Origin: Eunapius fragilis
Lineage: Eukaryota; Porifera; Demospongiae; Spongillida; Spongillidae
DNA: 64,000 bases
Assembly (NCBI GenBank): GCA_963681505.1
Contig: OY811980.1
Location: 7,879,118-7,943,117, forward strand
Direction: 5' to 3'
Shown: positions 1-50,999 of the stretch, one piece after another
Layout: each line of letters begins with the position of its first letter
How positions within the stretch are numbered: position 1 is the stretch's first letter
Position numbers and translations under genes: made by a program
Notes under the pieces: model-generated
The model's database searches: none
Told to the model about the DNA's origin: nothing
Seen by the model: only the letters and a program-made list of their open reading frames with translations

Positions 1-1065
1 TCTGCTCACTGGACCACCTGAGGTTGGTGCAGTCCAAAAGACACTGATAGTTGTGGGACCAGACTGCACAGCAGTGACACCAGTGGGTAGGGCAGGAGGA
101 CCTAGGTACATGTCTATAGGTAAAAGACACTCTTCATAGGCAGTACTTACCTGATACACTGAGGGATGAGGTAATGGATCTTGGATTGAGAGTAAACCCT
201 GTGGGTCCACACACTGGTGAGCAGGTAGTGGTGACAGTGCATGTGTACATCCCAGGTGCTCTCCCAGTCACAGTCAGGGTGTTGTTGTAAGTAGATGTTG
301 GTCGATCTGTCACTATCTGAGAGGAAGCATAGTTACCACCATTCACTGGACTTCCATTGATGGTCCACTGCACAGTTGTAGGAGGAGAACTAGTGCTGTT
401 GCAGGTCAACTGGAACACTGGTATATCAACATTTGTAGGTGTCAACAGATGAAACAGGACACCTCCTGTGATGTTAGGACCATCTGTGGGAGAGTCAACA
501 CTTCCATAACACATGTGATGTACTTTCCTCTCTACTTACAAGTGGCTGCTACAGAGAGAGCATAGCCCATAGTGCCTGATGCAGCTATGCCTGATGATGC
601 TGCTAGTGTGAGATCAGTGTACATTCCAACACAGAGTGTGATGGTGGTATTGGTACAACATTGAACACCATGTGGGAAGTCATAAGGAGTTCCACGATAC
701 AGCTCTACTCCAACTGACACGTTTCGTTGACCCAACCCTCCAGGGGTGGTTACAGGGTCTGGTGTTGCTAGTGGAAACAGGGCTCCACTTGGTTGATACC
801 ACTGTCCACCTGTTATACCCTCACACACCAGAGGAAACTGTTGGGTAGATGTTGCACTCACTCTGTTTTGGATTACAGAGAGGGTCACCAGACTGTTGTT
901 GGCAACCATTAGATTTGCACCATTCACATTCCAAAAGATCCCAACAGTCTGGCCTGTGTTTAACAATAAATAATTTATATGCATTTGCGTAAGGCAGCTC
1001 TAACCTTGTGTGTATCCAACCATTATCACCGTAGCAACGAGCAAACGAACTTTTATTTCGCACAT
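1..1065 (-). CDS. RPTP-like receptor gene E, 5' part (leaves the window)
   Basis: This is the start of a fourth ectodomain-bearing paralog of the cluster. Exon 1 (1065-1005) encodes a signal peptide, MCEIKVRLLVATVIMVGYTQ, and ends in a GT donor after one base of the next codon. Exon 2 (953-540) encodes an Ig-like N-terminal domain with the pattern LVCEG...W...CC...C. Exon 3 (about 522-153) is an Ig-like domain with FQLTC, VQW and MYTCTV. An FN3 exon (from about 104 downwards: [14 protein letters not shown]) runs off the edge. Reading frames are open in every exon seen. The rest of the gene, including any phosphatase domain, is outside the window. The product should be a type I membrane receptor. 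Exon 2 mixes sequence types otherwise split between genes A and B/C. Confidence 0.8.
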
Positions 1066-2440: not shown

Positions 2441-3879
2441 TAGGTTTGAAGTTGAAATCAGAACATTGATTTAATGGTAAATGAGGGGTGGAACCTATGT
2501 CCGTCCCTCCACCCTCCCTCCCCTTGCACCCTGTTTTGGTGCCTCAGTTCAGCAAGCACTCCAACCTGGTGTGGCCCTGACTTTACCAATGAGCACCTAA
2601 GGGGTTAAACTGACCAATGTCTGCACCATCATGACTCTGTTCTTCCTCATCTCCATCACAAAGCCCCACACACTCAGCGAGGCTTCTTTCTTCATCCTGT
2701 CCATCATGGCGTCCAGTACAATGAAGGTCCCAGTGCGCCCCACCCCCGCACTGCAGTGGACCACTAGGGGAATCCCCTTGCTCTTGTCGTGGGCCTTCTG
2801 TACCCTCCTCACAAAGTCAATGATGGAGGTGGTAAACTGGGGTACCCCGTGGTCTGGCCAGGCAGTATAGTGGAAGTGGGTGAGTTTAAGAGTACCCTTG
2901 GATGGATCATCTTTCTGAGGAGAGAGACATATGGTGTGTGGCGTGTGCATGTGTGTACTGCTCGTAATCTATTGGCCCTGGTAACACGGTTTCCCTCTCC
3001 CTCACTCTCCCTCCCTCTTAAAACTCACACTCTTTATGACAAAGGTTCTCATCTCATAGTCAGCACAGGGTATGTAGGAGACAGTCTTGATGGTGAGGGT
3101 GTCTGTCTCCAAGGACTCATTAAGCCTCTCAGCCCAGTACTGCTCACACTTTGCCTACAGGGGTCAGGTGTAATAAATACAGCAAGTAAAGGGGGGCGGG
3201 CTCTAATTTGGGTAGCAAAGATGGCATACCATGCAATGATGCTCTGTAACTCATCAACATTACATTAAGGTACAACACATGAATACCTATCAGGTGATCA
3301 TTAGCTGACTAACAGATGACCATAAGTCAACCATGAAGTAATTGTCCTGCAGCTGCAGTTCTGAAAACCATTGCCTTCTTCTGGTCCCCATCCCCATACC
3401 TCTGGTCCCAATCCCATACCTCTCTGGTCCCCATCCCCATATCTCTCGTCCCGCATACCTTTCCACCTTCAATGCACTTTGTCAACATCACGATACAGCT
3501 GATGTGTAGTTCCCAGACCATCCTCCAGAAATCCTTCACCGTATGTTCCAAGGGACCTATTCCAATGGCACCATCAGATCAACGCACAAATTACCATGGT
3601 AACCAACCTTGAGCTGCAACATAGCAGTTTTTATGTTCGTAGCCCTATAAGGACATGGGTGTACACATGAGCACACACCAGTGCAGGTGAGAGTGTGGAC
3701 TTGCATCTATGTAGCTGGCATTGATGTACATGTAGTCTGACCCTTCAACACCTGGGATAGGTTCAAGCTTCACTCTACTGGCATCATCTATTGAAGGTTG
3801 AGAAGTGTAAAAAAAAAGGCCACCTGCCAAGTACTCATATATTAATGCTTTTACAAGTCCACTATACTCACTGCCTCCT

Positions 3880-4185
3880 CCCTCCCCCACATCCCCTCCC
3901 CTCCCCCACATCCCTCCCCTCCCCCACATCCCTCCCCTCCCCCACATCCCTCCCCTCCCCCACATCCCTCCCCTCCCCCACATCCCTCCCCTCCCCCACA
4001 TCCCTCCCCCTACTTCCCTCCCCTCCCCCACATCCCTCCCCTCCCCACATCCGTCCGCTCCCCACATCCCTCCCCTCCCCCACATCCCTCCCCTTCCCAC
4101 ATCCCTCCCCTCCCCACATCCCTCCCCTCCCCACATTCCTCCCCTCCCCCACATCCCTCCCCCCTACTTCCCCCATCGTCCATCT
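3880..4185. repeat. 19-bp C-rich minisatellite (CCCTCCCCTCCCCCACATC)
   Basis: About 15 units of a 17-19-bp pyrimidine-rich repeat in a gene C intron between the KNRF exon and the GSDYMYINASY exon. Long open frames through it are low-complexity artefacts of the repeat. Confidence 0.9.
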
Positions 4186-4669
4186 CCTACAGCAAACACA
4201 CACATGAAACATGTCCCCTTCCAAAACAAAGTTAAAGCTACAAACATGGACAAGTAAATGGACCACTGCCATAAATGGACCACTGCCATAAATGGATCAT
4301 TGCCGTAAATGATCATTATACTATAATAGGATCATCATCCCATCCATACATGGACATAACCCTACAAGGACATCACCCTACATGGAAAGATATTGCCAAA
4401 TCTGTTTTTAGGTCTGTTGCACTCGAGGGCAGAGGTGTTACGTGACGTCAGAGGGTGTGATGGGATCAGCTGTTTTAAGGAGAGGGGAGAGGGGAGGGAG
4501 GGAGTAAGGAAGGTGACAGCGGAGGAGTCATTACCCAACAGAGTTGGTTTGTCCTAACCTGGTACTCCTTGGCAAAGCCTCTGTCCTTCTCTTCGTGCAT
4601 CTAGCGAACATGTTCACTGAAGTCCTTCAGCTGTATGGCTTCACAGCCCGCATCTACGCACCCACACAC

Positions 4670-44270: not shown

Positions 44271-44729
44271 TGTTGTATTAACATTAAAAAGCTGTGCATG
44301 CAGCATAGTCGGGCGGTGTTTGGTCGGGCTGTCACCCTACTACCTGACCAAACGCGGTAGTAGGGCCCGCCCGACTATGTACAGCACGGATCTGCACAAA
44401 ACCATTCACTTCACATGGCATGGTGACTCAGCTGTGTGTACAGTACACGACCAAAAGTTTAAAACCGTTCCAAACCTGTTACCTGATTTGAATCAGACTG
44501 TTATCAAATACTAAAAAGGTTGGGAAAAATATCCGTTTCAGATCTGGTGGAGTAATTTTCGATTCTTACCTGTACTACCACGATAATGCAAAACTGGTAA
44601 CAGCCTGAATCGTGGGTGGTACCAGCGCCAAGTCAAATATTGTTCCGGTGATACACGGGGGGAATGCGTGGTTTTGTCTCGTGATCGCTAATGTTAAATA
44701 AACGGATGAATGATTAATACATTCCATAA

Positions 44730-45650: not shown

Positions 45651-46514
45651 TTCTGTGCTCTAACAGTAGCATTGAAGGATTCACACCTACAGAATGAGAA
45701 ACATGATTTCTTTCAGGTCAAGGACAGTATAGTTTACAGCCAATTGCAACCCAAACTTGTACATGGTCAGTTGCTATCAGCTGTGTGTAATAAAATGTGT
45801 AGCAACTCTGTAGGGATTACCAGCCAAGGATCCATCATTGTACATGTTTGGCTTGCAGTTAATGGATTTCTATCAATGTTCAACTGTCCACTTCCATCCC
45901 CGGCACAAAAAGTGAGAGGGCAAATTGGACGAGTTGTACTTTGTTCTCAACAATAGGAACAGCCCAAGTAAATGTGACATGTACACATGCAGAGTATTTT
46001 AATTTTTAATGTGTGATATCAGTTCTTTGTTACAGTTACATCAACACCCTCCATATCGATCCAGGAAGCAAGACCTGAAATTCTTGAGCAAACACACATA
46101 GTATGTAGAATTTTAATTTTGCATAGTGTGTTTCATTGAACATATATGTAACTGTATAATGTAGAGGTGAAGGGAATTGATGTTATGCTGTTACCAGCAA
46201 AGAGTGTATTTGGACTGGACCTCTTTTTTACTTAAAGAGGAATTGGCAAGGTCTCTTTTTCACCAACAAAAGTGAAAGATTGGCTTTGGATCAAACCTAA
46301 GTTGCCTAAGTGATACGTAAGCTACATTGAGGCATACTCATTTCACTTTTGTAACATTTTTCTTCATTCAGAATTGATCAAGAATAGATATAACGACAGT
46401 GAATGGGAAATCAAAGATTTTGTACAGAAAGCAAATCAAAAGTGTAGGGACACTAAGTTATAGTTCAAGTGTATGAGTATGCTAATTTATACATGTATAC
46501 TATTATATATTTAA

Positions 46515-46783
46515 CCTTGCCAAGTCATACACAATCTTGTCAAATCTTGGTAAGCCTTGTCAAGACCCATCTTGGAATAACTTGACACTTCAGGCCAAAT
46601 CTTGTCACTTCTGTCCCAATTTCTTGAAATCTCTTAGCAAGTCTTGCTTGTAGTCTTGACAAGTCTTGATAAGTCTTGACAAGTCTTATGAAAACACGAT
46701 GCAAGTTTTAACAAGACTTGCCAAGTCATACTTTAATTTTCTTGGCAAGACTTGGCAAGTCTTGCCACTTTTTTTTAATAAGG
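46515..46783. repeat. AAGTCTTG(A/C)C tandem array, copy 2
   Basis: Duplicate of 15424-15690. Confidence 0.8.
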
Positions 46784-47530: not shown

Positions 47531-48067
47531 CACGGCTGTACTTAGTACGCGCGCGCCGCGTAAAAATTTCCCCTAGCAACCTCCTTGGATACCATGGAGG
47601 CATGTCGCTTCACAATGGCTTACAAGTGCGTGGGAGCGTAGCCACGTCTCAAAACTTTTAAGATGAATGAAGCAGTCCCCTGACTCTGTTTTTATGTGCT
47701 TTCTGATTTTAAATTTCTATTATTTCACGCGTTGTTTGACCATAAATCACATAACGTATTTCAATTATACTGCTACTCCTGCAGTTTTCCTAAGGAAATG
47801 TTTAAAAGAACTAAAAAGCTTGCCAAGTTAGCTACCAGATTATGCAGAGCAATTGTTATGAAACCTTTTTTTAATCCGTATATAATGTGGCTACCTACAA
47901 GTCATGAAAAACTCATAATAATTACACAGTGAATCACAAAATCGCACATAAAGGTATTAATTACTATACAAACATTATGTAGGTTCGTTCAGGTAGCATC
48001 TCAGCTGAAATACAATTGCACCAGTACAATTAAATGAACATACATGAATACGCAGACATTTACTCAC

Positions 48068-48556
48068 CTAAAATTGCTTACTTTTCTTTTTGTAGTGTTT
48101 TACTTCAGGCCTAGCAGCTACATTAATTGGTGTTACGTGTAACATATGCTCTTTAAACATTAATAATAATTTCTGTGCAGGTTGCTTACCAGAGTTATAT
48201 GTGCGAACAAGGTTATTGAAATACGGATGCATGCTTTCAATACCCTGCTCCCCTAAGTAGCCAAAACCAAAATGCCATCGTCTTAAGAAGGGTACCACAT
48301 GAGACTCAAGTATGTGCATTTTAGGGGTTGAAATGGAGACTCAGTTGAAATGGAGACTCTGAAATCTCCAGTTTGAGATGAAATGACTTCCAAAAGCTTG
48401 GCTCTTTCTTCAGGAGTACAAGCCTCCACTTCTTTGGACAGTTGAGTCATTGTGTCACCAGCACTAACAAAACTACGACGATCACTCAGGTTCGTGGTTC
48501 GATTCTTCACAGTTTTGGAAGACGCAGAGCTGGTAGGAACCTGCGCCTGACTGATA
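48068..48556 (-). pseudogene. Linker and C-terminal transposase-like piece
   Basis: The linker exon reads KNRTTNLSDRRSFVSAGDTM...EERAKLLEVISSQTG. In another frame follows HILESHVVPFLRRWHFGFGY LGEQGIESMHPYFNNL. The pattern 'HVxPFxxxxxxxFGxxGEQGxESxH' is common near the C-terminus of several uncharacterised cnidarian and sponge transposase-like proteins, where the Glu in GEQGxES could be the last acidic residue of a DDE triad. Linker and C-terminus are too close for a complete enzyme, so the core has been deleted and the two pieces are out of frame. Confidence 0.5.
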
Positions 48557-48607
48557 TGTGCAAAATGGAGTGGCTATGAGAATTGTATGTAATAAATGAC
48601 TGAAAAT

Positions 48608-49549
48608 TTAAAAATTGTGAGCTAAGTATTTACCTTCCCTGAGGTCTTTACTACTAGTACATCTTTTGTTGGACTTTGCAGCAGGGAACGCCTCACAAAA
48701 TGTGACTGTACGTAATGCTGACTCAACAGGAGATAGGGGCTCAGTCACAGGATTGTGAAGAATCTCTTGAAGTACACCATCCACTGGAACATACTGACAT
48801 GAGCTTTGCAAATGAGGTGTGTAGTCTGATAGTGGAAATTTGTTTTTGCATCGACTGCAAGCAACACTGATACTGCTTAGTGTGTCTAAAACAAGGCTAC
48901 ATGGTGGTCTTATTGTAGCAGCATCCTTCAAATGATCACCATAACAACAGGGACACACAAGCTCATGCTTGACTTCAAGCCAAGAGCAGCAACATTTGGA
49001 GCATACTATAGCTCCACATGTAACTAACTCAATTGGGCTGTTGAGGACTTCGAGACACAGTGGACACATAGCGCTATCTTTAGATGCATTACCCACCAAT
49101 TTGGGTGGCTCTTCAGTAAATGGTACAAGAGGCGGTGGTGCTATCAACCCAATGTGATGGACTAAATTCCTGATTGGAATTTCTGGAGGCCTACCATCTA
49201 ACTTGATCTTCTTTGGTCTCCCTCCCCTATCACATTTCCTCCCTTGCTCACACACCCTACACACATCGTCATTGTGTGACATCCAACCATCAAAAACCAC
49301 AGTGCACACATTGTATGATCTTCCGCTATCTAGTGCCTTCTTATAAGATGCAATGGTTTAGTAGCACAAGTAGCAAAATGAAGTAGGATGTGTGGATGGC
49401 AGATCATTGCTGATACTTATTCTGAATACAATTAATAGGTCTGAAGTATATGAGATACAACTGTAGATAGGTACTTTACGTCTTGTAGATGTGCAAAGCC
49501 TAGCACAAATCCTGCATAACTTTGCTAAATGGTGTGCATGTTCCGCCAT
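48608..49549 (-). pseudogene. RAG1 N-terminal-like zinc/RING protein of the transposon
   Basis: The first part reads KLCRICARL...VFRISISNDLPSTHPTSFCY-LCY. Vertebrate RAG1 has CRLC...[22 protein letters not shown] at the same place. After one in-frame TAA (near 49357) the same frame continues CTVVFDGWMSHNDDVCRVCE, GGRPKK, then a RING-like block CPLCLEVLNSPIELVTCGAI-VCSKC...CPCC, and a C2HC finger ISVACSRCKNKFPLSDYTPH-LQSSC that parallels the RAG1 finger after its RING. The usual RING His is not conserved (TCGAIVC instead of xCxHxxC). The exon ends in a GAAG|GTAAATAC donor; an acceptor ATATCAG lies near 48556. In RAG1 this region is a zinc-dimerisation and ubiquitin-ligase module. Here a DNA- or protein-binding role is inferred. 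Confidence 0.7.
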
Positions 49550-50001
49550 TGTGTGACTTTACGCAAGCGCTCACCTCCAACTACGTGAAAGTCAACGATT
49601 TTAGCCACATTATAGAATACGAGAAAAAAACACTCATTATACCTGGTTACTTTACACGTGTTGTGTAATGACACAGGAACACAGATATGTTGGCATAATC
49701 GCTGGGAAAACTGCAGGAAGCTGAAAAAGTGACCTTCTATGCACACCGCTCGAACCACTCGTTGTAAACGTAGCTCAATTAACACATGCGCAGTAGACAG
49801 GAACCAAAAACTGAAGTTGCGTGCTTGGGACACGAAATCCATCTAGGACTGCCCCACAATATGCTACGTGCCAAACCTTGTACATTGCCACCCGATACCA
49901 GACACATCGAGCGTTTCGAAGCATACTTGGTTGCTATGCTGGTTGCTAAGAGGATGTTAACTAATACCGTAAAATTCTATTTACAGCCGCAAACAGCCGT
50001 G

Positions 50002-50318
50002 TCCTATATAGGAACCACTAACGTCGTAACTATAATTCGTAACTCGAATTCGTATTTAACTTTATTTCTACACATTGTTCGCACACGATTATCTCTGACG
50101 CTATATTATCTATCCTGCTGCTGGTCGGCTCGTCGTGTGCCCGACCCTGGACCTTAGTCTCCCAGGGCTCCCAAGATATATTATATAGGTTTATTTTGGG
50201 ATCTGCTATATTTCCACTAACAGTTTCAGAGGCGGATACAGATAGGCGTGGTTCTGGGTAAACAGGATATAATCGGATATATCAACGTAAATTGTATAAA
50301 TATCCGATATTATCAGCC
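50002..50318. repeat. Spacer segment, first tandem copy with truncated MITE
   Basis: Contains CACACGATTATCTCTGACGC and the MITE start CAGAGGCGGATACAG (50227). The block from about 50040 is repeated at 50703-50981. Confidence 0.65.
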
Positions 50319-50375
50319 ACAGCAAATGGAGGTATTAACACACACACGTCATTAGTGCCTGAAAAGGGTCCGTGT

Positions 50376-50420
<45 letters not shown>

Positions 50421-50702
50421 TATGTGTGTGCATAAGGGGAGGTGAATGGGGGGAACAATGCCACATACCCTGGCTATGAAATATTGTGTACAGGCACAAA
50501 AGGTGACAGTGCATAGATCACTTCTTTGTGCATACACATGTGCATGTTCAAGCTCCATAACACATTTACATGAGCCCAACCCACCAGACCACTCAATCCA
50601 CCCCCCACACTCTCTACATGTATGTGCGTACCGTGTGCACGTTTTTCCCCCTGCGCACAGATATTACACATATCAACCTACTCATGTTAAGGGTGTGGGC
50701 AT
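50319..50702. other. Unique insert with (GT)n between the two tandem copies
   Basis: A GT microsatellite lies at 50376-50432, followed by about 270 bp without gene signals. Absent from the C-D spacer, where one continuous copy is seen. Confidence 0.55.
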
Positions 50703-50999
50703 TCGTATTTAACTTTATTTCTACACATTGTTTGCACACGATTATCTCTGACGCTATATTATCTATCCTGCTGCTGGTCGGCTCGTCGTGTGCCCGACCC
50801 TGGACCTTAGTCTCCCAGGGCTCCCAAGATATATATTATATAGGTTTATTTTGGGATCTGCTATATTTCCACTAACAGTTTCAGAGGCGGATACAGATAG
50901 GCGTGGTTCTGGGTAAACAGGATATAATCGGATATATCAACGTAAATTGGATAAATATCCGATATTATCCTGTACCACACCTGTCTGTATCTGCCACTG
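50703..50999. repeat. Second tandem copy with complete MITE (50882-50999)
   Basis: Begins at TATTTAACTTTATTTCTACA as in 50050 and 16503 and runs through the full MITE ending CTGTCTGTATCTGCCACTG. The single copy at 16503-16786 is the simpler state. Confidence 0.65.

Follow-up and report, generated by a model that had tools for sequence, protein, structure and literature searches.

Two questions about RAG1 are raised by a single element in the genome of the sponge Eunapius fragilis: whether the protein was put together from two separate transposons, and how the 12/23 rule for pairing its recombination signal sequences (RSSs) originated. The element lies in a 64,000-nucleotide stretch of contig OY811980.1 (assembly GCA_963681505.1, positions 7,879,118 to 7,943,117 of the forward strand), here called the window, and codes on the minus strand between termini that form a perfect 9-bp inverted pair. 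An earlier note on this DNA had described an internally deleted transposon with inverted ends beginning CAC and a RAG1 N-terminal-like zinc and RING protein, and had suggested that this module sits on a transposon separate from the catalytic core. Its observation is confirmed and its interpretation is partly supported. The element is very probably a dead, internally deleted cut-and-paste DNA transposon of the Chapaev type with two-part ends, for which we propose a synapsis of one short and one long end.

The parent of the window copy was found by searching the whole genome (219 Mb, 24 contigs), in which the module has at least 148 exon-level matches, 150 of 420 candidates having been scored. 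Full copies on contigs C23, C17 and C2 are 4455–4467 bp long and have the ends of the window element, with further exons beyond the RING exon. In the C23 copy these later exons hold GGDKGG, CGDYEF, CLWC, HILESH and GEQGIES. Likely GT–AG splice sites are predicted by eye between the exons of full copies, and the exons are presumably spliced into one protein in this genome. Measured against this parent, the window copy retains full-element positions 1–1671 and 3637–4435 at 97% identity and has lost the exons for GGDKGG, CGDYEF and CLWC, so the internal deletion was correctly recognized. The separate location of the module was not, as full copies hold module and core within the same ends.

Core-less elements here arise through internal deletion of a core-bearing parent. 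Both breakpoints of the window copy, 1671 and 3637, are common to the copies L014 and L015, and L012 is off by 4 bp at one of them; a second deletion subfamily (L016–L021 and L023) has its breakpoints at 1292 and 2920. Both multi-copy subfamilies are without the central catalytic exons and retain the parent ends and the last core exon. A stop codon within the module is present in the window copy, L012, L014 and L015 and absent from ten other translated family A copies. Because all four copies of the window's subfamily have it, the module is not kept as a gene there, and the subfamily would have spread after the module was broken, mobilized by a transposase from elsewhere. The copies L016–L021 keep an open Chapa–RING frame of 286–294 residues with the central catalytic exons gone. 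Truncated P-element proteins work as repressors, and by analogy these truncated Chapa–RING proteins could serve in the same way.

The arrangement of module and core recurs across the genome. The GGDKGG exon of sister family B matches DUF1280 (PF06918, E 2.6e-17), and at least 79 of the 131 DUF1280 places are preceded by the module, in the same orientation and no more than 5 kb away, 67 of them at 600–950 bp; a listed module match stands on the wrong side in none of the 131 and on the other strand in one. The motif order GGDKGG, CGDYEF, CLWC, HxLExH, GEQGxES is found in families A and B and is kept in 13 and 29 relatives. Relatives of the core were found in Hydra, lancelet, starfish, sea urchins and sponges, with many relatives in Ephydatia muelleri, which agrees with the sponge-like genome named in the earlier note; among viral contigs, 41 stretches fit the pattern of core alignment A3 and none encodes a relative. 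Pfam RAG1_imp_bd (PF12560) and PF06918 match beyond cut-off in single proteins of E. muelleri (P0023), Hydra (P0076, together with a RING) and a scpid-named EukProt record taken as Sycon (P0072). Other proteins have fewer of the parts: RING and PF06918 in starfish P0020, Chapa without RING in P0026 and PF06918 only in lancelet P0069. Full relatives are predicted to encode one multi-exon transposase of ~1000 residues in which Chapa, a RING with a zinc finger and an RNase H-like DDE core with C-x2-C and H-x4-H follow one another in the domain order of RAG1.

The N-terminal likeness can be traced in the window copy itself. RAG1_imp_bd matches the first coding piece with E 1.9e-6, exceeding the curated cut-off, and a sister family's exon with E 2.1e-12; matches beyond the cut-off include the window piece, P0001, P0002, P0004, P0005 and others. 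The ordered RAG1-like features listed in the earlier note are borne out in this way, and a result limited to generic RING or ZAD hits, which it had named as the outcome that would speak against them, did not occur. A profile of six sequences (five relatives and the window piece) has as its top PDB matches the full-length RAG1 chains 6oem_A and 9jpu_A (E 1.9e-11), collinear over RAG1 147–379, and next the BRCA1 and TRIM31 RINGs (7e-7) and the RAG1 fragments 1rmd (9e-7) and 21wb (1.3e-6). Because those RINGs score ahead of the RAG1 fragments, the RING part alone is insufficient to single out RAG1. The second frame of the window gives weak RING matches in Pfam, under cut-off, and when run alone against the PDB it has BRCA1 and TRIM RINGs as best matches and no RAG1 chain among the 46 matches listed at E ≤ 1. 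The likeness is therefore borne by the whole domain order and not by the RING, and it supports the view that the module is homologous to the N-terminal region of RAG1. That a RING follows Chapa is supported by the six-sequence profile and by Hydra P0076, in which PF12560, PF00097 and PF06918 all match beyond cut-off. A GGRPxK or GRxKK-like hook recurs in most relatives having that region; the sponge GGRPKK hook stands before the RING, whereas RAG1's GGRPR stands after it.

GEQGIES (48233–48253, with H-x4-H ahead) probably bears the last catalytic acid, as had been proposed. In a sub-threshold alignment with RAG1 its second E pairs with the E of SEGNES, a position read as Q in 6oem_A, and E962Q is stated in the titles of RAG1 structure entries. 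In RAG1 numbering the residues in question are E962 and H937/H942. The core has a C(2)C and an H(3–4)H between the second D and the last E, the arrangement given for Chapaev (CMCT) transposases (PMC12730594). In the model of a relative, the core has the RAG1 fold, with structural alignments of 11–16% identity. The RAG1 core is visible by fold only: PF12940 finds no match in the genome, with control genomes equally silent, and core alignments A3 and A4 find nothing significant in the PDB.

The ends of these elements are asymmetric and of fixed polarity. The terminal 9-mer CACGGCTGT, which confirms the CAC ends of the earlier note, is enriched in the genome, with 1322 occurrences versus 456 for the reversed pattern; a single occurrence is not diagnostic, as nothing else of the end is present in L003, L004 and L007. 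In divergent families, a spacer of 10 bp at the gene-start end and of 20–22 bp at the far end separates CACGGCTG from a second, GGACATTAGG-like motif. The sample of ends began with ten elements on C1 picked solely by inward-facing CACGGCTGT pairs, blind to the inner motif, and was later enlarged by another three pairs of this sort and by some copies that bear genes. The fetched elements have the same layout with diverged inner letters (GGACATTAGG, GGACATTTAG/GGACAATAAG, TGACAATAGG, TGCCATTAGG and GGAAACTAGG), and the far-end spacer varies to 20 bp in family E and 23 bp in L098; L090 is unlike an element end. In D2, a block other than the inner motif is the best shared one.

In family A, the gap between CACGGCT and the inner motif is 10 bp in 13, 21 bp in 14 and 25 bp in one of the 28 exact sites of the form CACGGCTGTT..GGAAACTTAG, and all 13 pairs join a short and a long end. 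The pattern CACGGCTGN{4,34}GACAWTAGG has 180 sites genome-wide and none when reversed, with a spacer of 10 bp in 106, 20–22 bp in 63 and other lengths between 4 and 34 in 11. Adjacent inward-facing exact sites at most 12 kb apart form short–long pairs in 37 of 37 cases, which with family A makes 50 of 50; random mating of those ends never gave more than 40 of 50 mixed pairs in 100,000 trials that treat copies as independent, which copies are not. The input comprised 100 of the 106 short, 63 of the 63 long and all 28 family A sites, and four more neighbouring pairs face other ways. A greedy procedure, in which one minus end was reused, made 27 of 29 pairs mixed, and one-to-one pairing, in an analysis with 34 hand-picked gene places, made 27 of 27 mixed. 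Where distinct ends face a module gene place, the start side is short in 25 of 25 and the far side long in 16 of 16, a count drawn from all 148 module places and leaving aside the 50 and 131 places of two other searches.

Conservation falls from ~2.0 bits per base in the terminal ten bases to ~1.5 in the inner motif and ~0.8 in the spacers, as computed from nine typed short ends, family B excluded, and nine typed long ends, family B included. The long spacer is partly conserved, with a recurrent CATTGAA, and the short end has extra conserved bases inside, at positions 28–29 and 34–36. With CACGGCT read as a heptamer and the inner motif as ACATTAGGT, the spacers become 12 and 23, in a register chosen after the fact; the spacer difference of 10–12 bp is independent of the register. 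Two 852-bp end pairs with spacers of 10 and 22 bp (C3:13611352-13612203 and C3:13735520-13736371) resemble miniature inverted-repeat transposable elements and may be natural test substrates.

Of 20 elements, 13 have a target-site duplication of exactly 4 bp (in one case within a poly-G run), one of 3 bp and one of only 2 bp, and five, including the window copy, have none; a 5-bp match is seen in one of the 20, in a poly-G run. Chapaev duplications are 4 bp. Duplications of 5 bp are typical of Transib (PMC4411706), and the CACGG..CCGTG termini with 4-bp duplications agree with the 5'-CA..TG-3' termini and 2–5 bp duplications given for CMCT elements (PMC12730594).

How such ends might be used can be outlined. 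Two-part recognition by the transposase is most likely, with a terminal CACGGCTGTT block as the cut site and an inner GGACATTAGG-like motif that is presumably a second transposase site. By analogy with RAG and the P element, a multimer would set its core on the terminal block and a separate DNA-binding part on the inner motif, which the GGRPKK hook and/or helices ahead of the core may read. Synapsis would bring together one short (10 bp) and one long (20–22 bp) end, about one helical turn apart, as RAG does with a 12- and a 23-RSS, and pairing may, on the same analogy, depend on the unlike spacers. Only a whole element would then be excised, and not like ends of neighbouring copies, and insertion would produce the 4-bp duplications. 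A multi-copy system with the full RAG1 layout and polar ends one turn apart offers a direct test of unlike-end pairing by a RAG1-like enzyme without RAG2; RAG2 was not seen with the element, in searches none of which was aimed at it.

Several results weigh against this account. Sequence matches to the RAG1 core are insignificant (2.3 and −1.1 bits; E 0.12 for ProtoRAG), and the modelled relative is 34% identical to the family A core, is without a RING and is modelled with low confidence in the region of the RAG1 nonamer-binding domain. Within families, pN/pS is mostly near neutral: from small counts, the Chapa–RING exon gives 0–0.86 in nine family A pairs, lowest for window/C23 and C23/C17, and values above 1 in 6 of 10 pairs among five family B copies. 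Family B (L073–L076, L001/2) has a fitting far end at 21 bp, whereas its gene-start end is without the inner motif at 10 bp; the far motif is deleted in L086, the start-side motif is missing in L022, and neither inner motif is left in the window copy, which also shows no 4-bp target duplication. The genome-wide end counts cover exact motif matches, with family B and decayed ends outside the 50 of 50, and they rest on about eight lineages, copies of a family not being independent. Families D and G match the inner motif weakly, 45 and 37 of 500 shuffles reaching their score. Just upstream of one family B copy, L025 has a ~260-residue open frame (SKVASITGSTKNAVMWTKY.., positions 1–782, plus strand) that is apparently another gene or element.

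N-RAG-TP of Aplysia, reportedly described by Panchin and Moroz in 2008, is like the window copy a transposon that carries RAG1 N-terminal-like sequence and no complete core. Together with the two-transposon idea it is cited in PMC8355894 as a published element with the N-terminal part only, and the sponge module might likewise, as in the two-source picture of the earlier note, belong to a lineage of its own, never joined to a DDE core and moved by a foreign transposase; two multi-copy deletion subfamilies without central catalytic exons, with the Chapa–RING frame open in L016–L021, speak for such a lineage. We hold it to be extremely improbable, and for the window element's family it is refuted by the full copies. 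The copies on C23, C17 and C2 carry module and core within the ends that the deletion subfamilies share, along with the last core exon; the broken module of the window's subfamily is not kept as a gene; the module lies upstream of most core exons and in no listed case on the wrong side; and module and core are joined in proteins of Hydra, E. muelleri and the record taken as Sycon. Unlike an element with N-terminal-like coding sequence only, the window copy still includes part of the last core exon and has a parent with the whole core, and the sponge core-less elements are deletion derivatives with the same ends. Placement within the RAG-like (RAG1L/Transib) lineage instead of Chapaev, to which the modelled core fold and the full RAG1 N-terminal region might point, seems highly improbable, given duplications of 4 bp and not 5 bp, a core that falls in PF06918 (DUF1280) and a genome without a PF12940 match, the control being silent as well.

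The asymmetry of the ends admits other readings too. It could be real and yet reflect no pairing rule, with promoter or repressor sites at the gene-start end and a polarity inherited from one founder; all 25 of 25 start-side ends are indeed short, and the conserved bases inside it and the CATTGAA of the long spacer would suit regulatory sites. This alternative accounts for less of the pattern, because both ends have the motif and a promoter leaves the gene-far copy unexplained. Spacer length is kept while letters change in lineages whose module exons are 29–42% identical to family A, and the bipartite layout matches known synapsis signals, the RSS and those of the P element (PMC7776569), which makes a purely regulatory origin unlikely. 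Nearly an even chance attaches to an independent gain of the one-turn asymmetry, as in P elements (9/21 bp), dimeric transposases gaining from unlike ends, which would be silent on RAG ancestry. Set against it are the domain order and core fold shared with RAG1, the 12/23 ends of some Transibs (PMC8355894) and the 12/23 spacers of the CACGGCT and ACATTAGGT register, itself chosen after the fact. Somewhat doubtful, though worth stating, is the view that the 12/23-type rule is older than RAG: an ancestral animal transposon would have had the whole RAG1 domain order and two-part ends one turn apart, sponge Chapaevs would keep both, RAG1 would not have had two sources, and N-RAG-TP-like elements would have come from Chapaevs by deletion. 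The multi-copy sponge system, with its full RAG1 layout, argues against a RAG1 built from two separate transposons.

A 2015 paper described Chapaevs that have Chapa and RING, the RING following Chapa in two subgroups, and used them to argue that the RAG1 N-terminal parts had already been fused to the core in a common ancestor (Kapitonov and Koonin 2015, PMC4411706). The window element is therefore of a known kind, and as a probable sponge Chapaev it supports such an early fusion. It resembles the CMCT group in its Chapa zinc module, RING, DDE core with C(2)C and H(3–4)H, 5'-CA..TG-3' termini and short duplications, and the sponge families differ in their asymmetric bipartite ends with 10- and 20–22-bp spacers. 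This asymmetry looks new: no report of it in Chapaev was found in searches of the open-licence PMC literature, a body mostly without subscription journals and Repbase reports. Compared with RAG1, the sponge families have 4-bp duplications, other heptamer and nonamer letters and, in the modelled core, 11–16% identity in structural alignment. The RSS consists of the heptamer CACAGTG and nonamer ACAAAAACC (PMC8289069), with which CACGGCT and the GGACATTAGG-like motif share only the letters CAC and ACA. What is alike is the presence of two spacer classes one helical turn apart, with one of each per pair (50 of 50, family B excepted); the RAG 12/23 rule is an experimental fact, whereas the sponge rule is one we infer.

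Transib and ProtoRAG are similar in the RAG1-like core, the CAC ends and, in some members, asymmetric ends. Transib is without the RAG1 N-terminal region (PMC7204232), and the 27/31 spacers of ProtoRAG (PMC8289069) are 4 bp apart as opposed to one turn. According to a 2021 review (PMC8355894), 12/23 asymmetry outside V(D)J recombination is known only in some Transibs, and the ends of known RAG-like transposons are symmetric or asymmetric in ways unlike 12/23. The P element has inner transposase sites at 9/21 bp, a spacing likened to 12/23 (PMC7776569). It shares a polar layout of terminal repeat and inner transposase site with the sponge element and differs in its transposase family, 8-bp duplications and 31-bp terminal repeats.

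The anatomy and decay of the window copy are given in Table 1. Relative to most sister copies, it also has a frame shift near the end of the RING exon.

Table 1. Features of the Eunapius fragilis element, in window coordinates
Feature	Position	Strand	Remark
Whole element	47531..50001	−	Family A, very probably Chapaev-type; internally deleted, inactivated; 97% identity to full copy
Gene-far terminus CACGGCTGT	47531..47539	+	21-bp spacer and inner motif GGAAACTTAG of full copies mostly deleted here
Last-exon open frame, 90 residues, transposase end	48068..48340	−	
Last catalytic exon remnant: KMHILESH (H-x4-H) and GEQGIES (probable last acidic residue)	48233..48322	−	
Internal deletion junction, full-element positions 1671/3637	48329..48340	−	
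Open frame, 249 residues: remainder of Chapa module, RING, zinc finger	48608..49357	−	
Zinc finger after RING, C-x2-C..H-x4-C	48797..48859	−	Same place as RAG1's own; aligned to RAG1
RING-type zinc finger	48944..49069	−	Sub-cut-off Pfam RING matches; profile match to RAG1/BRCA1/TRIM RINGs
GGRPKK..GRP basic hook, between Chapa module and RING	49187..49225	−	
Stop closing first coding piece	49358–49360	−	Common to four copies of the window's deletion subfamily
First coding piece, 66 residues: Chapa / RAG1 N-terminal zinc module, CRIC..HPTSFCYLC	49358..49558	−	Pfam RAG1_imp_bd
Gene-start terminus CACGGCTGT	49993..50001	−	Inner motif after 10 bp of full copies deleted here

Other repeats lie near the element. 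Just beyond its gene-start end is a direct duplication (50048–50314 and 50701–50969, 653–655 bp apart, 98–99% identity), with a GT run at 50372–50430 between the two copies. On the other side, positions 46480–46740 hold a degenerate array of CTTGACAAG/CTTGGCAAG-like units, within which Tandem Repeats Finder reports a 10-bp unit in 3.6 copies at 46652–46687. An inverted-repeat stretch at 44310–44380 (..CGGGCGG..GTAGGG / ..CGCCCGAC-like) resembles, by eye, a short foldback element.
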